Positions 23,265-35,319 of a DNA stretch of 64,000 bases are shown piece after piece; the first letter of the stretch is position 1, and each line of letters opens with the position of its first letter. The notes beneath the pieces were generated by a model. The model saw nothing but the letters and a program-made list of their open reading frames with translations, searched no databases and was not told the origin of the DNA. The stretch comes from Christiangramia portivictoriae DSM 23547 (lineage in GTDB: Bacteria > Bacteroidota > Bacteroidia > Flavobacteriales > Flavobacteriaceae): the NCBI RefSeq assembly GCF_000423045.1, contig NZ_AUHF01000001.1, positions 558,001-622,000 on the forward strand, in the 5' to 3' direction. The translations under genes and the position numbers were made by a program.

Positions 23265-24242
23265 CTAAGAATCCAAATATGAAGGGCTGAGGTTATCACT
23301 GCTAAGGCCATCCTGAAACTTGGCGTAACTAAAGCCTTTATGGATACAGTAAGAGCCAATTTCCCCGGCCTTGTTCAGGGCTACGTAAGCAATCTGGAAA
23401 TCTTTGTGATTAGGAGCTTTACGAACGGTTCTCATGACCGCTTCCTTGCAGGCATCCTGTGGAGACATTCCCTGTCGCATCAGTTCCACGATCAGGAAGC
23501 TGCCCACACTTTTCATGATCGCTTCTCCCATCCCTGTGCCAACAGCTCCACCAACTTCATTATCAAGAAAAAGTCCTGCACCAATGATTGGAGAGTCTCC
23601 CACGCGACCATTCATTTTGTACGAAAGTCCTGAAGTGGTACAGGCGCCTGCGATATCACCTTTTTCATCCATACATAACATTCCAATGGTATCATGATTT
23701 TCAATATTGATGATGGGGCGATATTCTTTATGCTCCAGCCAATCCTTCCATGCCTTTTCAGAACTTTCAGTTAGCAGATTTTTCTTTTTAAAACCCTGTT
23801 GAATGGCAAATTGTAAAGCACCTTCACCAGCGAGCATCACATGTGGGGTATCTTCCATCACCTTTCTGGCAACCTGTACGGGATGTGCGATTTCTTTGAG
23901 GTAGACCACTGCACCGGCATCGCCATTGGGGGACATTATACAGGCATCCAGAGTGACATTTCCATCCCGGTCTGGTGCTCCGCCATCTCCCACGGTCGTA
24001 TTTTTGAGGTTGGCCTCTTCTACCATCACTCCTTGCTCCACGGCATCGAGAGCATTGGCGCCGTTTTCCAGCATAGATCCTGCTTTTTTGGTGGCATTTT
24101 GAAAATTCCAGGTTGCGACCGCAACAGGTTTCGGTTGGTTGTTCATAGGTTCCAGTATATTATTTGGGAACAGGCTGGAACTTACACTAAGTGCTCCTAC
24201 GCTGATCCCGGTTTTCTGAATAAATTGTCGACGTTTCATCAT
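23265..24242 (-). CDS. Glycosylasparaginase / isoaspartyl peptidase (Ntn hydrolase), exported
   Basis: 325 residues. The N-terminus MMKRRQFIQKTGISVGALS has an RR-x-F-x-x-K Tat-type motif with a hydrophobic stretch, so export through Tat is likely. The autocleavage site is NHDTIGMLCMDEKGDIAGAC: Thr after Asp becomes the N-terminal nucleophile of the beta subunit. SGLSYKMNGRVGDSPIIGAG and GTGMGEAIMKSVGS form the substrate pocket as in N4-(beta-N-acetylglucosaminyl)-L-asparaginases. It would remove Asn-linked GlcNAc remnants or hydrolyse isoAsp/Asn amides in the periplasm. Start at 24242 or the next Met at 24239. Confidence 0.88.
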   Translation of the reverse strand: MMKRRQFIQKTGISVGALSVSSSLFPNNILEPMNNQPKPVAVATWNFQNATKKAGSMLENGANALDAVEQGVMVEEANLKNTTVGDGGAPDRDGNVTLDACIMSPNGDAGAVVYLKEIAHPVQVARKVMEDTPHVMLAGEGALQFAIQQGFKKKNLLTESSEKAWKDWLEHKEYRPIINIENHDTIGMLCMDEKGDIAGACTTSGLSYKMNGRVGDSPIIGAGLFLDNEVGGAVGTGMGEAIMKSVGSFLIVELMRQGMSPQDACKEAVMRTVRKAPNHKDFQIAYVALNKAGEIGSYCIHKGFSYAKFQDGLSSDNLSPSYLDS

Positions 24243-24445
24243 AAATGGATTAATACTGCCCTAAATGTATCAAAAAGCCTGATGAAAATCTGTATACAAA
24301 AAGTCGCACTTTGATGAAGTCTTTGTTGGTAATGGCTTATGAATAAAATTCTTTTATTATGGTTTAAGTCTTACTTTTTATTTCATAAATTCATGTTAAT
24401 CTGTTCATGTAGAGTTCTACATTCACATTTTGTAATCAATCATAT

Positions 24446-25927
24446 ATGTTCGCTTCAGAAACCTGGTCACTTTACGTTACTATTCTTCTAGTTGTCTATG
24501 CTCTTATCATCCTTTTTTTCGTGATAAGGGGAAATCTGAAAACGAAGAATATGGATGACTTTGCAATTGGAAGTAATGGCTTTCCCGCATGGGCGGTTGG
24601 ATTGAGTCTTGCTGCTTCCATGACGAGTGCCGCAACATTCATTATAAATCCTGGCTTTATAGCTTTATATGGTTTCTCCGGGATTATATCTTTCGGTGTA
24701 GTGATGCCCATTGCAATTTTTGCTTCTCTCATATTCTTTACCAAAGCATTTCAAAAACATGGTTCTACTGTCAAAGCCTTAACCATGGCACAATGGATAG
24801 GTAAGCGTTATGATTCCAAAGCACTCACAATTTTCTTTGCAATGCTGTCTTTATTATTAATCACTTTCATCGTTCTCATTTGCGTGGGACTTACCCAAAT
24901 CGTTTCGAAGTCATTGAATCTTGAGCCTTTCTATGTTCTAATGGGGTTGATCACCTTTGTCTTTGGATATACCATGTTTGGTGGAGCCAATTCCATGGTG
25001 TATACCAATACCGTACAGGCGATTATCATGTTTGTGGTAGCAGTGATCCTGTTAGCTTCAGGATCAGAGTATTCTTCTAATGGTTTCGAAGGGTTTGCCA
25101 GTCTGCTAAGTGAGATCGATCCTAATTTGACGAAAACCACAAACCCTGAAAGTTTTCTTTTCCGGGATTATTTTGAGATCATCGTATGCCAGATTATCAT
25201 TGGGATCGCTATAGTTTGCCAGCCACATATAATTACAAAGACATTATTTCTTAGAAGTGAGAAGTCCATCAATCAATATCTTACCGTAGCAATTGGTTGC
25301 ATGAGTATCTTCTTCCTGGTAGTAGTGGTTGGTCTTTATGCAAGACTCACTTTTCCAGATCTAAGCCTTGATGGAACTGCCTTGAAGATGGACGAATTGG
25401 TTTCGGCTTATGTAGTGAAAACTTTTACAGCGGGAATCGGAGTAATAATCGTTGCTGGTTTGATTTCAGCTGGGCTTTCTACTTTAGAAGCTTTGATACA
25501 GTCCCTTTCCACCACGATCACAACAGATCTAATAGCACCATTAAGTAAAAAGGAGACTTTTAATCAAGTAGGATTAAATAAAATTGTGATCATTATACTG
25601 GCAATCGTGAGCTTCTTTCTAAGTTACGACCAGATCGTAGATCCAAATGTAAGTGTGGCGATTTTTGCACAGAATGGGGTCTATGCCTATTTCGCTGCTG
25701 CCTTCGTGCCGGTGCTTTTTGGGATCTATTTCAAGAAAGTTAGCAAGAATGCAGTATTCATCGCAAGTTTTTCAGCAGTAGCACTTCATTTTATTATTTA
25801 CTACGGAAGGATTACCCCGTATATGCAGGAGCCGGTGAACAACCCGGGAGTTTCAGCAGCAATCGCTGTTGTCGCATCTTTTATTATTGGTAATTCTCTA
25901 TATTTAATTAGTAGAAAGAAAACATGA
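24446..25927 (+). CDS. Sodium:solute symporter (SSS family)
   Basis: 493 residues with about 13 hydrophobic segments. LSLAASMTSAATFIINPGF is the SSS substrate/Na+ site region of helix 1-2, GGANSMVYTNTVQAIIMF matches the GG-x-x-x-VV-x-TD-type helix 6 region, and GLISAGLSTLEALIQSLST is the Na2-site helix 8. The stop overlaps the start of an acyl-CoA synthetase gene by four bases, so the transported solute is probably a carboxylic acid that is then CoA-activated; with the downstream dehydrogenase, 3-hydroxybutyrate or acetoacetate are plausible (inference). Confidence 0.88.
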   Translation: MFASETWSLYVTILLVVYALIILFFVIRGNLKTKNMDDFAIGSNGFPAWAVGLSLAASMTSAATFIINPGFIALYGFSGIISFGVVMPIAIFASLIFFTKAFQKHGSTVKALTMAQWIGKRYDSKALTIFFAMLSLLLITFIVLICVGLTQIVSKSLNLEPFYVLMGLITFVFGYTMFGGANSMVYTNTVQAIIMFVVAVILLASGSEYSSNGFEGFASLLSEIDPNLTKTTNPESFLFRDYFEIIVCQIIIGIAIVCQPHIITKTLFLRSEKSINQYLTVAIGCMSIFFLVVVVGLYARLTFPDLSLDGTALKMDELVSAYVVKTFTAGIGVIIVAGLISAGLSTLEALIQSLSTTITTDLIAPLSKKETFNQVGLNKIVIIILAIVSFFLSYDQIVDPNVSVAIFAQNGVYAYFAAAFVPVLFGIYFKKVSKNAVFIASFSAVALHFIIYYGRITPYMQEPVNNPGVSAAIAVVASFIIGNSLYLISRKKT

Positions 25928-27441
25928 ATTATTTTGATTGGATAGGAAAATGGTCTGTCTATACTCCAGATAAGAAAGCGGTAGCATCTGTAGACACGGG
26001 TACAGCTTATACTTACAGGGAGCTGAATGATCTTTCGGTTCGGCTCGAGAATCACTTGAGAATTGAATATTCTATTGAGAAAGGAGATAGAATTGCAGTG
26101 CTTGCCTCTCATTCGCCAGAATACCTCATACTTTTTATCGCTGCTCAAAGAATGGGAGCAATACTTGTTCCGCTTAATTACAGAGCTTCAGTTTCAGAAC
26201 TGGAATACTGCATTAAGGACGTAGAATCATCATTGGTCATTTATGAAAAGGTATATCAGCCGAAAAAAGTTCAACTAAGAGAAAAAGTATTTTTTAATCA
26301 GGTCGAAATAAGCCAAATCTATGAAGCGGCATCCAGAGAAAATTCAGAAGCAATACCTGCTGAAATTGAACCTGAGCAACCGGTCTTTATCTTTTATACT
26401 TCAGGAACAACCGGAAAACCAAAAGGTGTTTTATACACCAACCGAATGCTCTTCTGGAATAGTTTAAATACTTCGGTACAATTAGAAATCACTTCCGCAG
26501 ATTTTACACTGAATGCGTTGCCGCCTTACCATACTTCCGGTTGGAATGTATTGCTGTTACCAATGTTGCATCGCGGTGCAAGGGTAGATTTTCTGAAAGC
26601 TTTTAAGCCTAAAAAAGTGCTGGATTATATTCAGAATAATTCCATAAGTCTGTTTCTTGCTATTCCCACCATGCTTAGAATGATGGTTCAACACCAGGCT
26701 TTTCAGGGTTTTAAAGCACCAGAGCTAAAATATATTGTGGTAGGAGGAGAAGATCTCTCCATTTCAATTATTGATAAATGGGCAGAAAAAGGGATTCTTT
26801 TACGGCAGGGCTACGGACTCACCGAAGCGGGGCCTTGTATCACCTCCCTGCATCATCATGATGCTCTATGGAAAAAAGGTTCGATTGGGAAACCAAATTT
26901 TTACGTGGACTATAAAATTATAAATGATGAAGATCGGGAAGTGCTGGCTGGTGAAGCTGGAGAGCTGTACCTGCGTGGAAATATTGTCACTCCCGGTTAC
27001 TGGAACAATTCAGCTTATACTCTTGAAAAAATAAAAGATGGCTGGTTTCAAACCGGTGATATTGTAAGAATAGATCCTGAAGGTTTTCTATATATGGTGG
27101 GAAGAAAGAACCAGATGTTTATCTCGGGAGGAGAGAATATTTATCCTTTGGAGATCGAAAATGTATTGCTGAAGAAGAATCTCGTTAAAGAGGCGGCAGT
27201 TATAGGTGTTGAAGATGAAAACTGGGGGGAAGCTGGAGTAGCTTTTCTGGTTGGAAATATTCAGAATTTAAACGAAGAAGAACTGCAGGAAAAGCTTAAA
27301 GACTATCTAGCATCTTACAAGATTCCCAGGCATATTGTATTTCTCAATTCCTTACCTAAGTCCGGGATCGGGAAAATTGACCGTAAACAATTAAAGAAAA
27401 TGTATAAGTTTCTACAAGATGAAAAAAGGAATATTATTTAG
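25924..27441 (+). CDS. AMP-forming acyl-CoA synthetase (class I adenylate-forming)
   Basis: 505 residues. P-loop FYTSGTTGKPKGVLYTNRM (about 157-175), LPPYHTSGWN, A5 motif GYGLTEAGP, A7 GWFQTGDIVRIDPEGF, GRKNQMFISGGENIYPLEIE and the catalytic C-terminal lysine in PKSGIGKIDRK. It activates a carboxylate to the acyl-CoA with ATP. It is shorter than classical acetoacetyl-CoA synthetases (about 650 residues) and belongs to the medium/long-chain FadD/MenE-like branch, so substrate is open. Overlaps symporter and hydrolase genes on both sides, hence one operon. Confidence 0.88.
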   Translation: MNYFDWIGKWSVYTPDKKAVASVDTGTAYTYRELNDLSVRLENHLRIEYSIEKGDRIAVLASHSPEYLILFIAAQRMGAILVPLNYRASVSELEYCIKDVESSLVIYEKVYQPKKVQLREKVFFNQVEISQIYEAASRENSEAIPAEIEPEQPVFIFYTSGTTGKPKGVLYTNRMLFWNSLNTSVQLEITSADFTLNALPPYHTSGWNVLLLPMLHRGARVDFLKAFKPKKVLDYIQNNSISLFLAIPTMLRMMVQHQAFQGFKAPELKYIVVGGEDLSISIIDKWAEKGILLRQGYGLTEAGPCITSLHHHDALWKKGSIGKPNFYVDYKIINDEDREVLAGEAGELYLRGNIVTPGYWNNSAYTLEKIKDGWFQTGDIVRIDPEGFLYMVGRKNQMFISGGENIYPLEIENVLLKKNLVKEAAVIGVEDENWGEAGVAFLVGNIQNLNEEELQEKLKDYLASYKIPRHIVFLNSLPKSGIGKIDRKQLKKMYKFLQDEKRNII

Positions 27442-28345
27442 TCTGTTTAGTATTGTTCTCAGCTCCTTAAGTGCACAGCAAACTATTAGTGAATTAGCAA
27501 CCTACGAACTTCCAGTGAAAACTATCAAAATCAATCAGGAAACAATTGCCTATACCGATGAAGGTAATGGAGACAAAACTCTAGTTTTCGTTCATGGTTT
27601 GTCCAGTAATCTGGATTCGTGGAAGAAGAACCTTCAGGGACTAACTGGAAATTACCGCTGTATAGCAATAGATCTTCCGGGATATGGAAAATCTTCCCGT
27701 AGCAAAACTGATTATAGCTTAGCTGAATATGCCAAGGTTCTAAATGATCTGGTTGATAAGATGGAATTATCGAATGTTGTGCTTATTGGTCATTCCATGG
27801 GCGGGCAGATCTCGATGCATTCGGTATTGGAATATCCACAGACTTATGAAAAATTGATACTTATCGCACCAGCCGGAATTGAAACTTTTACAGAGCAGGA
27901 GGCTGCAGTCATGAAATCTGCATACACTCCAGCGATGGTTGTAAATACTTCAGATGATCAGATTCTGGCAAATTACAAGCTGAATTTTTACAGTTTTCCT
28001 GAAGAAGCTCAATCTATGGTAGATGATAGGATCGCCATGAAAGAGGCAGAAGATTTTCCAGATTATGCTGAAACAGTAGTCAATAACATTCATGCAATGC
28101 TGGAAGAGCCGGTGATCGATGAGATTCAGAGCATTGAAATCCCTGTTCTAATGATCTTCGGAAAGAATGATATGCTGATTCCAAACAAATATTTTCATCC
28201 TTCAGAAAGTATAGAAGGTTTGATAGAAACTTCCGGAGAAAAATTTCAGCATCTGGAAGTTGAGGTGATCGATGAAGCGGGACATTTTGTGAATTTTGAA
28301 AAAGCTGAAGCTGTTAACGCACAAATAAAAACTTTTCTTGATTGA
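27419..28345 (+). CDS. Secreted alpha/beta hydrolase (esterase-like)
   Basis: 308 residues. A signal peptide (MKKGILFSLFSIVLSSLSAQ) predicts periplasmic or outer location. Oxyanion HG motif FVHGLSSNLDSW (about 58-68), nucleophile elbow GHSMGG (Ser126), acidic residue in IFGKNDMLIP and the catalytic His in DEAGHFVNFE (about 293). The start lies 23 nt inside the synthetase gene, and its stop overlaps the next start. It would cleave an ester outside the cytoplasm; the released acid could be taken up by the symporter of the same operon. Confidence 0.85.
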   Translation: MKKGILFSLFSIVLSSLSAQQTISELATYELPVKTIKINQETIAYTDEGNGDKTLVFVHGLSSNLDSWKKNLQGLTGNYRCIAIDLPGYGKSSRSKTDYSLAEYAKVLNDLVDKMELSNVVLIGHSMGGQISMHSVLEYPQTYEKLILIAPAGIETFTEQEAAVMKSAYTPAMVVNTSDDQILANYKLNFYSFPEEAQSMVDDRIAMKEAEDFPDYAETVVNNIHAMLEEPVIDEIQSIEIPVLMIFGKNDMLIPNKYFHPSESIEGLIETSGEKFQHLEVEVIDEAGHFVNFEKAEAVNAQIKTFLD

Positions 28346-29781
28346 TGAAGTCTAAACTTAAAATATTCACCGACTTTTCTGAAGGGGTCTTGCCTCATGA
28401 AGCGTCATTTCTTCAGAAGGCCAACAGGATACGTGATGAAGAGAAGGAGGAAATTTTAAATAAGGTTTGTAGAAATGCCGAACGCTTTTTTACTTCAGAA
28501 GACTTTGATGAAGAGATTGATAAACGCAAATATGCTTATATCAAAAAGTGGATAGCACATAAACTCGAGAGAGCCGATGTCGATGCACATCTCGAATACC
28601 TGAGTTTTATAGAAAAACAGGTATTGACAGATACTATTACTTCCATAGAAGAAAAGGAACTGCTGGAGAATATTAATGTCTACGATCAAACCTCGTTCTA
28701 TTTCCAGAAATTCTATGAACTTGTTCGTGAATACCAGGATTATTTGCTGGTAAGATTCAGATATCAGGATTGTGAGCTTACCGAAGCTTTTTTAAAACAA
28801 AACCTGGAAGCCTATCAGCGCTCTTTAGCTGTAAAAGATGAAATTTTTCATGCAACCAAGGATCTGACCCGACAATACACCTCACAAAAGATCAATACAA
28901 AGCATTGGGAGTCCAGATTACTGGAGTATCTCTATGATGATAAGCTAGATGGTCGCAATAAATATCATGCCTTTATCAGGCTGGTTTTTCTCTATTTTAA
29001 TTACAAGGAATATGAGAAAGCACGCAAGGTTTTCGATTATATCGATGATTGCTTTAAACATGGATTGATGTATTCCAGGCGTGTGCTTTTTAATTATTAT
29101 GCAAACCGGGTGATCCTGCATTCGAATTTAAAGGATTTGGATCAGGCTGAGTATTATGCCCATCTGTCGGTGAAACAGGATAATAGCGACAAGCTTTTCT
29201 ACCTGAATAATCTCGTAGCGATCCTGCTGAAAAAGAATAAGAACAGGGAAGCGCTGGATCTTCTGACTGAAAATTATAAACTTTTTAAAAGTTCCTATAA
29301 CCATCATCAAAAACTTGGATTCGCCACGCATTACGTTCGTACCCTGGTGAGGAATAAACGACTGAATATTGCAGAAACCTTTGCGGGTAACTTCCTGTAT
29401 GAGAATCGCAAGCACGTTTTTGAACATCGTTGGGGCAGGTTTTTCTCAAACTACCTCATGTTGCTAACTACGGCAGAGAAGCCTGCTGAAGTGATCAAGA
29501 TCACCAAAAAGTATAATCTTCTTGAGCGTGAAACAGAGGAAATGGGTCGGGAAAATCTTGTACCCAAGATTCACTGGTACTATTATCTGGCTAACTACCT
29601 CAATGGTCAGTATTCTGAGGATAAATTATTCGAAAGGCTGGTGGAAAGCATTGAGGCTTCCAATCTCAATACAGAAGGATTAGAAAGGCTAAATGAATTT
29701 ATAGATCGACTGGCTTTTTCTCTTCCAGGCTTCTTTTCAAAACTAAAGTCGCACTTTGAGGAGAGTTCCCTTAATTACTAA
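28345..29781 (+). CDS. Unknown cytoplasmic helical-repeat (TPR-like) protein
   Basis: 478 residues from the ATG at 28345, which overlaps the upstream TGA (a TTG three nt earlier is less likely). No signal peptide or membrane helix. Strongly helical with many Tyr/Leu/Lys; segments such as YFNYKEYEKARKVFDYID, DLDQAEYYAHLSVKQ and LNNLVAILLKKNKNREAL look like degenerate tetratricopeptide helices. I do not recognise the family. Being last in the symporter-synthetase-hydrolase operon it may be a regulator or scaffold, or simply a passenger. Confidence 0.7.
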   Translation: MKSKLKIFTDFSEGVLPHEASFLQKANRIRDEEKEEILNKVCRNAERFFTSEDFDEEIDKRKYAYIKKWIAHKLERADVDAHLEYLSFIEKQVLTDTITSIEEKELLENINVYDQTSFYFQKFYELVREYQDYLLVRFRYQDCELTEAFLKQNLEAYQRSLAVKDEIFHATKDLTRQYTSQKINTKHWESRLLEYLYDDKLDGRNKYHAFIRLVFLYFNYKEYEKARKVFDYIDDCFKHGLMYSRRVLFNYYANRVILHSNLKDLDQAEYYAHLSVKQDNSDKLFYLNNLVAILLKKNKNREALDLLTENYKLFKSSYNHHQKLGFATHYVRTLVRNKRLNIAETFAGNFLYENRKHVFEHRWGRFFSNYLMLLTTAEKPAEVIKITKKYNLLERETEEMGRENLVPKIHWYYYLANYLNGQYSEDKLFERLVESIEASNLNTEGLERLNEFIDRLAFSLPGFFSKLKSHFEESSLNY

Positions 29782-29852
29782 AACTCTGCGATTTTTTAAT
29801 ACTGGTGGTAGCCAGAATTTTTAACGGTCATACTTCACAATCTTGACTCAGC

Positions 29853-29884
29853 CCACCCAGTACTGCATTCTCTTGTTAATTTCG
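29853..29884 (+). promoter_or_regulatory. Probable promoter of the TonB receptor-hydrolase-bdh operon
   Basis: TTG at 29853-29855 and TAATTTCG at 29877-29884 (one mismatch to TAnnTTTG), 21 nt apart; leader about 24 nt. It separates the two operons of the 3-hydroxybutyrate-type locus. Confidence 0.4.
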
Positions 29885-29911
29885 TCTTAAAACAATCAAA
29901 AACTATCTTTT

Positions 29912-32389
29912 ATGAAGATCAGACTTTTCACCATTATGAGCATGCTATTCGGCGTTTTTGCATACGCTCAAACGGGAAGCATTAGCGGGACAGTTACAGA
30001 TGCCGCTACCGGGGAACCTTTACTGGGAACTAATATTGTAGTAAGAGGAACCAACACCGGTGCTACCACCAACGAGAATGGAAATTATAAACTGGATCTT
30101 GAACCAGATGATTATACCATTGAGGTTTTCTTTATGGGTTACGAAACTCTTACCAGGGATATTAGCATCGCTGAAGGGCAGAACATGACCATGGATTTTA
30201 GTTTAAATCCATCATCCTCGGTAATGGATGAAGTTGTGGTTTCAGCAAATAGAAGACCACAGAAGATCACTAAAGCACCGGCAACAGTCAATGTAATCTC
30301 TGCAAAGCAGATCGCTGATTTTCCTGGTCCCAATCCGGGTGAATTAGCCGCCAGACAAAAAGGAGTGGATTTTATTAGAACAGGAGTGCAGGGAACCGGA
30401 ATCAATATTCGAGGATTCAATTCGGCTTTCAACTCTAAAAACCTTCAGATAGAAGATGGGAGAATTTCTTCGCTGGTAGCTACAGGTTTGCCGCTTGGCT
30501 CTTTTACGACGATCACTAAGGAGGATATTGAAAGAGTCGAGATCATTTTAGGTCCTAATGCAGCTCTTTATGGTCCTAATGCGCATAACGGACTCGTAAA
30601 CACACTTACCAAAGACCCAAGAACTTCTGAAGGTCTGGACCTTGTGGTTGGAGCTGGTAACCAGAAGCAGTTCACAGTTCGTGGGCGCTATGCCATGGAG
30701 GTGAGCGATAAATTTGCTTTTAAAGTCTGGGCAGAAAGAACTCAGGGAGAGGAATTTGATTATGTAGATTCAGTTTACGTGGGAACTACAGCATATAATG
30801 AACTGGATCTGGATAGAGACTTTTCGACAACAAAATATGGTGCAGCTACTTATTTCAGTCTTAATGAAACCAGTGATTTGATCGCTTCTTACGGGCACAG
30901 TAATAACTCAAACCTTGGAGTTACGAATGCTGGTAGAAACCAGATTAAGGACTGGTCTATAGATTATTTACAGTTAAAATATGTCTCCCCGCATTTCTAC
31001 GGAAACTTATATCACACCTGGAGTAAAACTGAAGATACCTACGCGATCAATCAGCGTACACAAAACTATGTTTCTTTTATCAATAATGGATTTACAGATG
31101 AGGAAGCAAGAGCAAGATCTTTTACCGAGCAGTGGTTCCCAATTGAAGGAGCTCCGAATGGAGGAATTAGCCTTCCAAGAGGATCTGTCTTTGAGGATGC
31201 TTCTACAAGGTTGAATGCAGAAGCGCAGTATAATAATAACTTCGGAAATCTTACTTACGTGGTTGGCGCTCAATACCAGAAAGATAATGCTGATTCTAAT
31301 GGTACTTATCTTTTAGATGAAGAAGGAACCATTGAAATTGATCAGGTTGGAGTTTATGGCCAGTTGGAATATAGTTTTGAGGATGCAGGAGTGGATCTTT
31401 TATTCGTAGGTAGATATGATGATCATGAACTATATGGAGGAAACTTTATTCCGAAAGCAGCGATCGTGAAGAACTTTGACTTTGGTAGTTTCAGGCTAAC
31501 TTATGGAAAAGGTATTGCAGCTCCATCGATATTAAACCTTAGCGGAAACCTTTTTGGGGGTCTTGTGCTGGGTAATGGAGAAGGTTTCACGTTACAGGAT
31601 GGTACAGAAATTCCTGAGCTAAAAGTTGAAACTATAAAATCCTGGGAAATGGGATATAAAGGAAAATTGTTTGGAGAAAAGACATTTTTCGAAGCGAATG
31701 CATACTACAATAAATCTGAAGATTTCTTAAGTCCGCTTATCAACATTTCAGCGACTTCTCCGGTTGCGACCAGGGGAGAGACTCCAATTGGAGATGTGAT
31801 CGCAGGTTCAGATGGTTCTTTTGTACTTACATATCTCAACTTCGGGCAAGTGGATACTTATGGTGCAGATCTTGGAATCAACTACTTCCTTAATGATAAA
31901 AACCGACTCTCATTTAACTACTCATATTTTGGATATGAACTGGATGAGAATGATCCGGCAAACGATGCAAACAGAGATGGACAGGTACTGGAGACAGATC
32001 TTCCTATCAATACTCCAGAAAATAAATTTGGGATTGGATATTACTATACCGGAGCTAAATTCTTTGGATCTCTATATGGCCGTTATGTACAGGAATACGA
32101 CTTCTTTTCAGGAATCAATATCGCTGCTGAAACTCAGGACCTGAATGGTGATGGAGTAGATGACGTCATCGAAAATGCGAGAAACGGTAGAACCTGGAAT
32201 TATGGTCCACTAGGAGGATTCTTCAATATGGATCTTAACGCTGGTTACCACGTGAACGATAACTGGACCGTTGGAGTTTCTGTAACCAATCTTTTTGATT
32301 CTGAAGTAAGACAATTTGTGGCTTCTCCGGAAATTGGAAGACTGTTTATGGTAGAGCTGAAATATCACCTGCCAATAGGAAAGAATTAA
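29912..32389 (+). CDS. TonB-dependent outer-membrane receptor
   Basis: 825 residues. Signal peptide (MSMLFGVFAYAQ), carboxypeptidase-regulatory-like domain (about 22-105: GSISGTVTDAATGEPLLGTN), plug with TITKEDIERVEIILGPNAAL and GPNAHNGLVN, then the barrel ending VGVSVTNLFDSEVRQF and a C-terminal strand. No SusD homologue follows; instead an alpha/beta hydrolase (20 nt downstream) and a 3-hydroxybutyrate dehydrogenase. It is not obviously a siderophore or starch receptor; import of an ester or oligo-ester is inferred from the operon. Confidence 0.9.
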   Translation: MKIRLFTIMSMLFGVFAYAQTGSISGTVTDAATGEPLLGTNIVVRGTNTGATTNENGNYKLDLEPDDYTIEVFFMGYETLTRDISIAEGQNMTMDFSLNPSSSVMDEVVVSANRRPQKITKAPATVNVISAKQIADFPGPNPGELAARQKGVDFIRTGVQGTGINIRGFNSAFNSKNLQIEDGRISSLVATGLPLGSFTTITKEDIERVEIILGPNAALYGPNAHNGLVNTLTKDPRTSEGLDLVVGAGNQKQFTVRGRYAMEVSDKFAFKVWAERTQGEEFDYVDSVYVGTTAYNELDLDRDFSTTKYGAATYFSLNETSDLIASYGHSNNSNLGVTNAGRNQIKDWSIDYLQLKYVSPHFYGNLYHTWSKTEDTYAINQRTQNYVSFINNGFTDEEARARSFTEQWFPIEGAPNGGISLPRGSVFEDASTRLNAEAQYNNNFGNLTYVVGAQYQKDNADSNGTYLLDEEGTIEIDQVGVYGQLEYSFEDAGVDLLFVGRYDDHELYGGNFIPKAAIVKNFDFGSFRLTYGKGIAAPSILNLSGNLFGGLVLGNGEGFTLQDGTEIPELKVETIKSWEMGYKGKLFGEKTFFEANAYYNKSEDFLSPLINISATSPVATRGETPIGDVIAGSDGSFVLTYLNFGQVDTYGADLGINYFLNDKNRLSFNYSYFGYELDENDPANDANRDGQVLETDLPINTPENKFGIGYYYTGAKFFGSLYGRYVQEYDFFSGINIAAETQDLNGDGVDDVIENARNGRTWNYGPLGGFFNMDLNAGYHVNDNWTVGVSVTNLFDSEVRQFVASPEIGRLFMVELKYHLPIGKN

Positions 32390-32409
32390 GATTAAATCCT
32401 GTATAACAG

Positions 32410-33201
32410 ATGATCTGTAAAGCAGAATTAGAAAATGGGATTAGCCTTGAATATCTTGATCGGGGAGAAGGAGAAGTAATTCTTTTTATTCACGGATTGG
32501 GATCTACAAAGGCAGATTGGGATCTTCAGAAGGAATTGTTTTCAGAAGAATTTAGGATCATAGCGCCAGATCTTCGGGGACACGGAAACTCTTCAAAACC
32601 TAAGCTAAAAGAGGATTACGGAGTTCAAAAGTGTGCAGAAGACATGAAGCTGTTGTTGGATAAATTGAAGATAGCAGATTGCATCATAGTAGGTTTTTCA
32701 ATGGGTGGCGCGATCGCATTTGAGATGGCTACCAGGTTCAGTGAAAGAATCTCGAAAATTGTCATTGTGAATACCGCGCCAGATTTTAATGCGCTAGGAG
32801 AGATGGGAGAGCAAATGGTCGCAGAACGAACTGAAATGTTGAGGTCCCGGGGGATGGATGCCATGGCACAAAAAGTAGCTGAAGGAATGTTTCCTGAAAA
32901 GGATCAGAAAGATCTGAGAACAGCTTTTTATTCGAGAGCAAAAGAGAACGATCTGGAGGCTTATTACAATTCTTTTATCACACTTATGGAGTGGGGAATT
33001 GGAGATAAGATTAAAACTATAAAGACACCAACTCTGGTAGTTGCATCAGAACTGGATTATACACCGGTGACTTTAAAGCAATCTTACACTTCAGAAATGA
33101 TAAATGCAAAATTGGAAGTAATTAATGATTCCAGGCATGGAGTAACCATGGATCAGCCAGAAAAATTTAATAAAGCACTTCTAAAATTTTTTAGATCATG
33201 A
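32410..33201 (+). CDS. Cytoplasmic alpha/beta hydrolase
   Basis: 263 residues, no signal peptide. LFIHGLGSTKADWDLQ gives the oxyanion hole, GFSMGG the nucleophile elbow (Ser97), ELDYTP the acid region and SRHGVTMDQP the catalytic His (about 245). Most like 3-oxoadipate enol-lactonase/short-ester hydrolases. Its last bases overlap the dehydrogenase start, so the two act in one pathway; a dimer or short-oligomer hydroxy-ester hydrolase would fit (inference). Confidence 0.85.
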   Translation: MICKAELENGISLEYLDRGEGEVILFIHGLGSTKADWDLQKELFSEEFRIIAPDLRGHGNSSKPKLKEDYGVQKCAEDMKLLLDKLKIADCIIVGFSMGGAIAFEMATRFSERISKIVIVNTAPDFNALGEMGEQMVAERTEMLRSRGMDAMAQKVAEGMFPEKDQKDLRTAFYSRAKENDLEAYYNSFITLMEWGIGDKIKTIKTPTLVVASELDYTPVTLKQSYTSEMINAKLEVINDSRHGVTMDQPEKFNKALLKFFRS

Positions 33202-33968
33202 ACAGAGTAGCTTTGATAACCGGAAGTACCAGTGGAATTGGCAAGTCTATTGCGATTGCATTTGCTGATGCTGGATACGATATTATGTTTCATGGACTGG
33301 AAAAGAATGGCGCAGAGATCGCCGGTAAAATTTGTGAAAAACATTCGGTACGAACAAATTTTTCCAATGCTAACCTGAAGGATCAGGAGGCTATTAAAGA
33401 ACTTATTGCAACAACAATAAATGAATTTGGAAAGATCGATATACTCGTAAATAATGCCGGAATTCAATATGTCTCCAAAGTAGAAGAATTTCCACTGGAT
33501 AAATGGAATGATATCATAGCCATCAACCTGAGTTCTGTTTTTGTTGCTTCCAGAGCCGTCTGGCCTTCTATGAAAAGTAATGGATTTGGCAGGATCATCA
33601 ATATTTCCTCTGTACACGGCATCCGGGCTTCAGAATATAAGTCGGCTTATGTCTCTGCAAAACACGGGGTTATAGGTCTAACGAAAGTTCTGGGTCTGGA
33701 AGGTGCAGGCCATAATATTACCTGTAATGCTATTTGCCCTGGTTACGTCAAAACTCCTTTGGTGGAAGGGCAGATCCAAGACCAGGCGAAAGCTCATGGT
33801 CTTACCGAAGATGAGGTAGTAAAACAGGTGATGCTTAAGAAGCAGGCCGTCAAAGAATTCATCCCGGAAAGAAAGATCGCAGAATTAGCTCTTTTCTTAG
33901 CGAAGGAAGATGCTTCAGCAATTACAGGATCAGCCTACGTGTTGGACGGCGGCTGGAGCGCACAGTAA
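33198..33968 (+). CDS. bdhA: D-3-hydroxybutyrate dehydrogenase (SDR)
   Basis: 256 residues. NAD-binding TGSTSGIG (8-15), NNAG (85-88), catalytic Ser138, Tyr151 and Lys155. Family knowledge: in the Pseudomonas fragi enzyme the substrate carboxylate is held by Gln94, His144, Lys152 and Gln196. With a constant offset of four, all are present here as Gln90 (NNAGIQ), His140 (SVHG), Lys148 (YKSAY) and Gln192 (EGQI). That is much stronger than a general SDR call. It oxidises (R)-3-hydroxybutyrate to acetoacetate with NAD+. Its ATG overlaps the hydrolase stop, and a terminator follows. Confidence 0.93.
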   Translation: MNRVALITGSTSGIGKSIAIAFADAGYDIMFHGLEKNGAEIAGKICEKHSVRTNFSNANLKDQEAIKELIATTINEFGKIDILVNNAGIQYVSKVEEFPLDKWNDIIAINLSSVFVASRAVWPSMKSNGFGRIINISSVHGIRASEYKSAYVSAKHGVIGLTKVLGLEGAGHNITCNAICPGYVKTPLVEGQIQDQAKAHGLTEDEVVKQVMLKKQAVKEFIPERKIAELALFLAKEDASAITGSAYVLDGGWSAQ

Positions 33969-33984
33969 ATTTAATAGTTTGTTG

Positions 33985-34027
33985 GACAGAGGTAGGATAT
34001 TTATTTATTCTGCCTTTGTCTTTATTA
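33985..34027 (+). terminator. Terminator after bdhA
   Basis: 11-bp stem (33985-33995 with 34010-34020, two G-U pairs in RNA), 14-nt loop, then TTTATTA. Marks the end of the receptor-hydrolase-dehydrogenase operon. Confidence 0.6.
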
Positions 34028-34092
34028 GTTAAAATGAACTAAAAATCTGTGGCAACCGCAGGATTCCCAATATCTTCGCAAAAAACTACTTA

Positions 34093-35319
34093 ATGCGCTG
34101 GTTGATTCTTGCCGTTATCTACATTATCGTAGATCTTTACGCTTTTCAGGCTTTACGGATATTTTCAAAGAATGTTTGGGTAACCTCGTTCTATTTCCTG
34201 ATTTCGATCATAGTAATTGCTAATCTTTTCTATCAATTCAATCAGCCAAATCCTAACGATGGTTTTGGAGGTGGAAGAGGCTATGCCATAGGAATATTTC
34301 TGGCATTTTTTGTAGCTAAAATTGTACTTGCCCTGGTACTTCTGGGTGAAGATTTCTTGAGGCTTCCATTCGCAGGTTTCCAGAAACTATTTGGTTCTTC
34401 AGAAAGTTTTTCCATTCCGTCAAGAAGAAAATTTATAAGTACTGTTGCTCTGGGTCTTGCAGCTATTCCATTTGCCGGATTGCTGTATGGGATGGTCAAG
34501 GGGCGATACAACTTCAGGGTGTTGCGATATACACTTTATTTCGATGATCTTCCCGAGGCTTTTGATGGTTATACCATCAGCCAGATTAGTGATGTACATA
34601 GTGGAAGTTTCGATAATAAAGAAAAGATACAGTATGGTGTTGACCTCTTGAAAGAGCAGGAAAGTGATCTGGTGGTTTTTACCGGAGATCTTGTAAATAA
34701 CAAAGCTTCGGAGATGGAGAACTGGAAAGATGTATTTTCACAGGTAAATGCCAGGGACGGTGTATATTCTATTCTTGGGAATCATGATTATGGAGATTAT
34801 ACGCAGTGGGAAAGTCCGGAAGCAAAAAAGCAGAATTTACAACGCCTGAAGGATACTCATGCAGAAATGGGTTGGAAGCTAATGCTGAACGATCACAGTC
34901 TTATTGAGAGAAACGGAGAAAAGATAGCGCTGGTTGGAGTAGAGAATTGGGGAATTGGCGGATTCAAAAAAGCCGGTGATCTTCAAAAAGCCGGAAACGG
35001 ACTCTCCAGCAAAGATTTTAAAGTTTTGCTGAGCCACGATCCTTCGCATTGGGAAGAAGAAGTGAAGAAAGACGAAAAACTTTATCATTTAACCCTTAGT
35101 GGCCATACCCATGGAATGCAATTTGGGATCGAGATCCCGGGCTGGCTAAAATGGAGTCCTGTGCAGTATCGTTACAAGCACTGGGCTGGAATTTATGAAG
35201 AAGCAGGACGCTATATTAATGTAAACAGGGGCTTCGGATTTCTGGCGTATCCTGGTAGAATAGGAATATGGCCTGAAATTAGCGTAATCGAACTGAAAAA
35301 AGGACCTAAACCAGCTTAA
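34093..35319 (+). CDS. Membrane-anchored metallophosphoesterase (YkuE-like)
   Basis: 408 residues. Three N-terminal membrane helices (about 1-20, 28-45, 65-90), then SRRKFISTVALGLAAIPFAG, a Tat-like motif in front of a fourth helix. The catalytic domain follows with SDVHSG, VFTGDLVNN, LGNHDYGDY and LSGHTHGMQFG, the four metal-binding blocks of calcineurin-like phosphoesterases. Substrate unknown; related enzymes act on phospholipid or lipid-A-type pyrophosphates. A TATCTTCG box at 34071-34078 could be its promoter. Confidence 0.85.
   Translation: MRWLILAVIYIIVDLYAFQALRIFSKNVWVTSFYFLISIIVIANLFYQFNQPNPNDGFGGGRGYAIGIFLAFFVAKIVLALVLLGEDFLRLPFAGFQKLFGSSESFSIPSRRKFISTVALGLAAIPFAGLLYGMVKGRYNFRVLRYTLYFDDLPEAFDGYTISQISDVHSGSFDNKEKIQYGVDLLKEQESDLVVFTGDLVNNKASEMENWKDVFSQVNARDGVYSILGNHDYGDYTQWESPEAKKQNLQRLKDTHAEMGWKLMLNDHSLIERNGEKIALVGVENWGIGGFKKAGDLQKAGNGLSSKDFKVLLSHDPSHWEEEVKKDEKLYHLTLSGHTHGMQFGIEIPGWLKWSPVQYRYKHWAGIYEEAGRYINVNRGFGFLAYPGRIGIWPEISVIELKKGPKPA

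Follow-up and report, generated by a model that had tools for sequence, protein, structure and literature searches.

A conserved two-operon locus of Flavobacteriaceae that probably serves the uptake and consumption of 3-hydroxybutyrate esters

Loci of marine Bacteroidota that are fed by TonB-dependent receptors are best known for the use of glycans, and bacteria that cycle poly-3-hydroxybutyrate (PHB) assimilate 3-hydroxybutyrate (3HB) via bdhA together with either acetoacetyl-CoA synthetase or 3-oxoacid CoA-transferase. A seven-gene locus of Christiangramia portivictoriae DSM 23547 has features of both. It occupies positions 24446–33968 of the window, the stretch of 64,000 nucleotides analysed here (contig NZ_AUHF01000001.1, positions 558,001 to 622,000). 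As in SusC/SusD-type polysaccharide utilisation loci (PULs), outer-membrane TonB uptake, hydrolases and an inner-membrane transporter are encoded together, but the proteins scanned include no SusD and no carbohydrate enzyme, and CoA chemistry takes the place of sugar metabolism. The logic of bdhA-type assimilation, from 3HB to acetoacetate and on to acetoacetyl-CoA, appears to be retained; the locus differs in adding TonB import, an exported esterase and a family-less regulator candidate, and none of six cluster-bearing genomes has a PHB synthase (PhaC, PF07167, E 0.001). No account of this locus, or of 3HB or PHB loci with TonB receptors in Bacteroidota, was recognised in the open-licence literature.

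The locus is read here as dedicated to the uptake and consumption of (R)-3HB esters, most likely soluble 3HB oligomers freed from PHB by other microbes, and a probability of about 0.6 is assigned to this reading. Support is good for the gene block, for its unity and for its link to 3HB. What is new is that catabolic modules have been exchanged while a core stayed constant, and that both operons have paired sites in common. The genes of the locus are as follows.

24446..25927, + strand: SSF, sodium:solute symporter (PF00474), a putative importer of 3HB or a short acid
25924..27441, + strand: ACS, acyl-CoA synthetase of the ANL group, FadD13/MenE-like (PF00501 and PF13193)
27419..28345, + strand: ABH1, exported alpha/beta hydrolase (PF00561, Abhydrolase_1) with the presumed triad Ser126-Asp251-His289
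28345..29781 (alternative TTG start at 28342), + strand: ORF4, family-less protein with a predicted all-helical, possibly TPR-like fold, candidate regulator or scaffold
29912..32389, + strand: TBDR, TonB-dependent outer-membrane receptor without a SusD partner (PF00593, PF07715, PF13715)
32410..33201, + strand: ABH2, cytoplasmic alpha/beta hydrolase (PF00561, Abhydrolase_1) with the presumed triad Ser97-Asp216-His243
33198..33968, + strand: BDH, (R)-3-hydroxybutyrate dehydrogenase (adh_short; TIGR01963 above cut-off)

The initial annotation had described two tandem operons with a gene set leading from uptake to a CoA thioester and with gene overlaps of 1–23 nt. All seven open reading frames (ORFs) are present, all on the + strand, and their families agree with that description. 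Operon 1 comprises SSF, ACS, ABH1 and ORF4, operon 2 comprises TBDR, ABH2 and BDH, and a gap of 130 nt between ORF4 and TBDR divides them. The overlaps are 4 nt (SSF/ACS), 23 nt (ACS/ABH1), 4 nt (ABH2/BDH) and, for ABH1/ORF4, 1 nt with the ATG start at 28345 or 4 nt with the TTG start at 28342; TBDR and ABH2 are 20 nt apart. Pfam and NCBIfam scans took in the seven cluster proteins and two neighbours. TBDR carries a carboxypeptidase-regulatory domain and scores 110 bits on the SusC model TIGR04056 against a cut-off of 368 bits; no SusD family and no carbohydrate enzyme were found among the nine proteins. The earlier label ‘PUL-like’ is therefore a loose one, even if TonB uptake, hydrolases and a transporter share one block.

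A scan of GTDB genomes by ORF4 alignment (two peptide patterns) yielded 72 loci; it misses diverged ORF4s, e.g. those of genomes G011 and G080. All seven genes are contiguous and in the same order in 57 of these loci, from many genera, and each of the 72 contains at least one further cluster gene (or, for BDH, a related short-chain dehydrogenase/reductase, SDR). The remaining 15 comprise two loci truncated by contig ends (L067 and L078) and 13 variants. The largest recurring groups of flanking genes reach 10 of the 57 loci. The 427 ORFs that flank the 57 loci (at most four per side) show no recurring regulator or depolymerase gene, the 16 largest groups being judged by eye and not family-scanned. 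The lack of synteny in relatives, named earlier as one observation that would refute the idea, is therefore not seen. The counts are of sequences and not of independent events, since the loci share ancestry and the 57 include one pair of identical copies (L037/L038). That pair, from Mangrovimonas sp. TPBH4 (NZ_LBIO01000037.1), shows the locus twice in opposite orientation, identical over 21,419 bases, which is either a large duplication or an assembly artefact.

Joint occurrence was followed in a family sample of 149 genomes, one per genus, with the C. portivictoriae genome included. ORF4 (E ≤ 1e-20), SSF (1e-80) and ABH1 (1e-50; scoring covered the top 15 preliminary candidates of each genome) each occur in eight genomes, and the set of eight is identical. 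BDH (E ≤ 1e-50) occurs in six, all within those eight and none outside. The five other BDH-bearing genomes all hold the same seven genes, in order and on one strand; four of the five are also represented among the 72 loci. Searches for plasmid relatives gave none for SSF at 1e-30 and none for ORF4 at 1e-3; for ACS there were 134 records, all below 60% identity and at most 35.7% identical among the 15 listed.

A site with an AGTCNYA core lies upstream of both SSF and TBDR, often as AAGTCRCACTT or a sequence near it. The sites in the window are as follows.

24301..24311, + strand: operator-like site upstream of the SSF operon, AAGTCGCACTT (AGTCNYA core; exact AAGTCRCACTT)
24366..24376, + strand: second site of the SSF operon, AAGTCTTACTT, 65 bp downstream of the first
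29746..29756, + strand: operator-like site upstream of the TBDR operon, AAGTCGCACTT, within the 3′ end of ORF4
29825..29835, + strand: second, weaker site of the TBDR operon, CGGTCATACTT, 79 bp downstream (score 4.8 vs 21.2 for the first)

Among 20 representatives of our choice (16 named genera and four unclassified), AGTCNYA is present within 220 nt upstream of SSF in all 20 (39 sense and three antisense occurrences) and upstream of TBDR in all 20 (35 sense, none antisense); the corresponding figures for the other five genes are 0 for ACS, 2 for ABH1, 0 for ORF4, 1 for ABH2 and 0 for BDH. A weight matrix finds matches upstream of both SSF and TBDR in 58 of 58 sequences (here and below, the 57 full-block loci and the window), compared with 1/58 for ACS, 3/57 for ABH1, 0/57 for ORF4, 0/58 for ABH2 and 5/57 for BDH. 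The regions that served to train the matrix are also those in which its matches were counted; checks that depend less on them are the exact pattern, the genome-wide exact count, and spacing and orientation. Two sites over a low threshold precede SSF in 48 of 58 sequences, 65–66 bp apart in 45 of the 48, and TBDR in 49 of 58, 78–79 bp apart in 43 of the 49. No second site over this threshold stands at the usual spacing in 10/58 sequences upstream of SSF and in 9/58 upstream of TBDR. When exact sites only are counted, the 11-mer AAGTCRCACTT occurs three times in the C. portivictoriae genome: in front of the SSF operon, in front of the TBDR operon and within an ORF read by eye as glutamine tRNA-ligase; a reversed control pattern occurs twice.

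The site at 29746–29756 sits in the coding end of ORF4, and codons and DNA site may be co-selected there. A known RNA element was also sought with Rfam (window 23900–34200, E up to 1); the single match, a flavivirus hairpin on the opposite strand, was below its gathering score and was rejected. A Bacteroidetes-type promoter (TTG-N16-22-TAnnTTTG) was found upstream of SSF in 1/57 loci and of TBDR in 0/57, not above shuffles.

The seven genes might be adjacent by inheritance only and perform two tasks, one operon taking up an acid and the other combining receptor, hydrolase and BDH. The division into two operons would suit this arrangement, as would the variants that lack both BDH and ABH2, but it is hard to reconcile with contiguity in 57 of 72 loci of many genera whose flanks are so little shared, with the identical distribution of SSF, ABH1 and ORF4 over the 149 genomes, and with sites upstream of both operons. 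This explanation is considered very improbable; synteny, co-occurrence and shared cis sites support the two operons forming one unit.

Evidence for the link to 3HB comes from BDH. This protein passes the curated cut-off of the 3HB dehydrogenase family TIGR01963 (350.3 vs 307.05 bits), and its second-best match within the genome is at 33% identity. The residues of the P. fragi enzyme that have acid-binding (carboxylate-binding) roles are known, and the initial annotation had matched Gln90, His140, Lys148 and Gln192 of BDH to them. The match holds at a constant offset of 4 to PDB 1wmb, which we take to be the P. fragi 3HB dehydrogenase; all four residues are invariant in 58/58 cluster BDHs, as is Trp253, the counterpart of P. 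fragi Trp257. The difference is at P. fragi Trp187, which is Tyr183 in 58/58 cluster BDHs; Tyr is also found in PDB 3v2h, deposited as a 3HB dehydrogenase, and Trp187 is not part of the curated TIGR01963 definition. The catalytic set Ser138, Tyr151 and Lys155 is retained in cluster BDHs and variant SDRs alike. BDH resembles the 1wmb and 3v2h enzymes in both its Gln/His/Lys/Gln/Trp acid-binding set and its Ser-Tyr-Lys catalytic set but differs from them in that its gene adjoins those of a TonB receptor and an exported hydrolase.

The two hydrolases appear to act in different compartments. A simple hydropathy rule, used here rather than a signal-peptide program, assigns a hydrophobic N-terminus to ABH1 in 58/58 sequences and to ABH2 in 1/58, in agreement with the earlier assignment of a signal peptide to only one of them. 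The presumed Ser-Asp-His triad of ABH1 is invariant in 58/58; in ABH2, Ser and His are present in 58/58 and Asp in 57/58, the remaining sequence having an unreadable residue at this position. It had also been said that neither hydrolase has a recognisable classical PHB-depolymerase layout, and the scans agree: PF10503 (extracellular PHB depolymerase) is absent from the Pfam matches of both, and on NF050089 (intracellular short-chain polyhydroxyalkanoate (PHA) depolymerase, i_nPHAscl) ABH1 scores 117 bits and ABH2 97 bits against a cut-off of 300 bits. The closest described depolymerase is PhaZ of Bacillus thuringiensis (PDB 8ynv). ABH1 (AlphaFold 2 (AF2) model, pLDDT 92.6) shares with it the alpha/beta-hydrolase fold and the Ser-Asp-His triad, and a PHB depolymerase ranks first when the ABH1 profile is compared with PDB sequences; the differences are an identity of about 20%, the low score on NF050089 and the export-like N-terminus. 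For the ABH2 profile, PHB depolymerase ranks fifth, with other esterases ahead. Eight paralogs, drawn from 23 other PF00561 matches in the genome, score 58–80 bits on NF050089 or are not among the matches listed, i.e. below ABH1 and ABH2. Alpha/beta hydrolases in general tend to score on PHA depolymerase models, and the depolymerase likeness of ABH1 and ABH2 only weakly suggests a PHB-type substrate.

The route can be outlined as follows, and here we infer the substrate, the direction of transport and the order of the steps. TBDR would take the ester across the outer membrane, and exported ABH1 would cleave it. SSF would import 3HB, or short oligomers whose hydrolysis ABH2 would complete in the cytoplasm. 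BDH would oxidise 3HB to acetoacetate, which ACS or the genome's 3-oxoacid CoA-transferase would convert to acetoacetyl-CoA, and a thiolase encoded elsewhere would yield acetyl-CoA. Both operons may be switched jointly via sense AGTCNYA sites, usually paired, plausibly by or with ORF4. In the six cluster genomes, CoA-transferase genes (PF01144) are present in five, missing in G057 (670 contigs), and a thiolase above cut-off in all six; none carries the depolymerase family PF10503 (E 0.001). Together with the lack of PhaC matches, this would suit scavenging hosts that have no PHB stores of their own and make no PF10503-type attack on solid PHB. Since 3HB use is plausible and neither PHB storage nor PF10503-type attack is indicated, soluble oligomers are the best guess for the substrate.

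SSF, ORF4 and, where the contig extends far enough, ABH1 are retained in the 13 variant loci and the related diverged clusters. In place of BDH and ABH2 these clusters carry a FabG-like SDR and one or more KAS III-like proteins, accompanied by ACS or a CoA-transferase-like protein and, in Bacteroidales, by a thiolase. Type B comprises L109 and L110, from the family members G080 and G011 without BDH, with ORF4 and the SDR on one side and SSF, ABH1, TBDR, the KAS III-like protein and ACS on the other. Type C comprises nine loci named Saprospiraceae, Chitinophagales or Bacteroidetes. All nine have SSF, SDR and ORF4; eight also have ACS, a KAS III-like protein, a lipoprotein-like protein and a protein of 524–545 aa; seven also have ABH1, and the two without it are cut by contig ends. 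Type D belongs to Bacteroidales. In L071 and L073, a CoA-transferase-like protein takes the place of ACS; both loci also encode SDR, ABH1 and a pair of KAS III-like proteins and, upstream, a 393-aa protein read from its N-terminal sequence as similar to the L077 thiolase. L077 has ORF4, a thiolase above cut-off, SDR, a KAS III-like protein, SSF and ACS, its contig ending within ACS with no ABH1 seen; in L075 (3,155 bases), ABH1 and ORF4 alone are seen.

The variant SDRs differ from BDH where the acid is bound: the positions of Gln90, His140, Lys148, Gln192 and Trp253 are replaced in 13 of 13 (the SDR of L073 is not included). This is the pattern expected if the SDR acts on a CoA or carrier ester after activation and BDH on the free acid. 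Both routes would then end in an acetoacetyl unit, with the steps in a different order. Cys, His and Asn form the catalytic set of FabH, with Cys as the nucleophile. The KAS III-like protein of L083 (6485–7474), the only one aligned, keeps the Cys and has Thr and Tyr at the His and Asn positions and is therefore unlikely to be an ordinary decarboxylating condensing enzyme. By eye, its relatives occur in L077, L080, L109 and L110 alongside the FabG-like SDR. The CoA-transferase-like protein of L071 (2387–3694; a relative occurs in L073) resembles butyryl-CoA:acetate CoA-transferase, with 264 bits against a cut-off of 675 bits.

Several observations weigh against the proposed reading. Both hydrolases lie far under the PHA-depolymerase cut-offs of NCBIfam. 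The best NCBIfam model is NF011457 for ABH1 (148 bits; the PHA model is second) and PcaD enol-lactonase for ABH2 (136.5 bits; the PHA model is sixth). In a structural comparison of the kind proposed earlier, PhaZ is among the fold matches of ABH1, but Foldseek ranks it 10th; the matches above it include a phospholipase, a hydrolase from Pseudomonas and a feruloyl esterase. ACS matches 110 NCBIfam models and is over no cut-off among the best 25 of them, and it would be redundant beside a 3-oxoacid CoA-transferase. The two variant SDRs scanned pass the cut-off for 3-oxoacyl-ACP reductase, not that for acetoacetyl-CoA reductase, and a different 3-hydroxy acid might be the substrate of the variants. 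Tenacibaculum mesophilum fLL, which may or may not carry the locus, used 5 of 25 substrates for growth, and PHB was not one of them (PMC12565237); four of the loci come from other Tenacibaculum. Of the 3HB-ester utilisation proposed initially, the route of import, hydrolysis, oxidation and CoA formation centred on 3HB stands, and the identity of the ester as PHB or an oligomer of it is conjectural.

The ester could instead be another molecule bearing 3-hydroxybutyryl groups, such as a 3HB-substituted exopolysaccharide or a small natural ester, of which the locus would trim and consume only the 3HB part. Such substituted polymers occur in nature. TBDR is a TonB receptor of general type, both hydrolases stay under the PHA-depolymerase cut-offs, and in 5 of 57 loci a SusC-like receptor was seen by eye no more than four ORFs away from the block. 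We regard this as unlikely: neither a glycan enzyme nor SusD is among the seven genes, flanking groups (not family-scanned) recur in at most 10 of 57 loci, and an exported and a cytoplasmic hydrolase fit an oligomer cut in two places. Somewhat less likely still is an ester of a different 3-hydroxy acid (3-hydroxyvalerate, or a branched or longer acid), or an acid whose activation by ACS does not involve BDH, 3HB then being a by-product only. ACS resembles FadD13, feruloyl and MenE ligases, which would suit such an acid, as would the KAS III-like proteins of the variants and the L077 thiolase, which scores high on BktB models yet under their cut-off; a BktB-type thiolase would accept longer chains. 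BDH speaks against it, being in the 3HB dehydrogenase family with acid-binding residues complete but for Trp187 (Tyr).

Published reports on polyesters touch the family without concerning this locus, as far as their relevant passages go. F. kasyanovii used 31/34 substrates and was grown on PHB (PMC12565237). Tenacibaculum was isolated from films of poly(butylene succinate-co-adipate) (PBSA) and polycaprolactone (PCL), and the passages on PHB of the same paper do not name it (PMC11944904). Flavobacteriaceae ranked third in a biofilm on poly(3-hydroxybutyrate-co-3-hydroxyvalerate) (PHBV) (PMC8321090), and a network links Flavobacterium to poly(3-hydroxybutyrate-co-3-hydroxyhexanoate) (PHBH) (PMC10317964). 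If 3HB oligomers are indeed the substrate, members of the phylum would scavenge breakdown products of a bacterial storage polyester and of PHA bioplastics. The patchy but recognisable core (8/149 family genomes) could then be used as a trait marker to predict strains that respond to 3HB oligomers.

ORF4 matched neither Pfam nor NCBIfam models at E 0.001, nor any PDB sequence at E up to 1, and no DNA-binding domain of known regulator families was recognised by these three comparisons. Its AF2 model is all-helical (pLDDT 92.4); the top PDB rows of Foldseek consist largely of helical solenoids, of TPR type or otherwise, with low TM-scores and with none reaching E ≤ 0.001. The closest named relatives by ORF4 are Christiangramia species, with up to 90% identity. 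Within contig limits, ORF4 is the sole gene common to the variants that is neither an enzyme nor a transporter, and in more than one order it occurs together with sites of this kind; for these reasons it is proposed as a candidate for the cognate regulator or part of one, the alternative being a regulator encoded elsewhere.

The sites of the variants are as follows. In six of the nine type C loci (L086 and L089 are near-identical by eye), a same-strand GTCNYA pair 66–67 bp apart lies upstream of SSF; in 2000 shuffles, which preserve base composition only, never more than one of nine loci had such a pair by chance. The other three, of Saprospiraceae type (L081, L083, L087), have no exact pair. 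L077, from Bacteroidales, has two strong sites 78 bp apart, one within the end of ORF4 and one after it. In type D, L145 has no site, and the one pair of L146, 82 bp apart in front of a thiolase-like gene, is weak. Type B has no site pair, L109 being without a GTCNYA core and L110 having one. By eye, L109 and L110 share AAAAAGTCCATATCATAA between SSF and SDR, perhaps a diverged version of the site.

It is possible, though doubtful, that ORF4 is the first member of a new class of transcription regulator. Such a regulator would be a single TPR-like protein built of helices throughout, with no known DNA-binding domain, and would sense 3HB or its CoA ester and activate both operons via two sense AGTCNYA sites 65–66 or 78–79 bp apart. 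In two or three orders of Bacteroidota, the module of regulator and sites would then have been kept with the 3HB-ester cassette even as catabolic enzymes were exchanged. The shared sites and the constant, family-less ORF4 make the search for the regulator directly testable.

The clusters without a TonB receptor contain a protein of 524–540 aa (L083: 2766–4337; L071: 6874–8493) next to a lipoprotein-like one; it matches no Pfam or NCBIfam model and, by eye, looks like an outer-membrane barrel.

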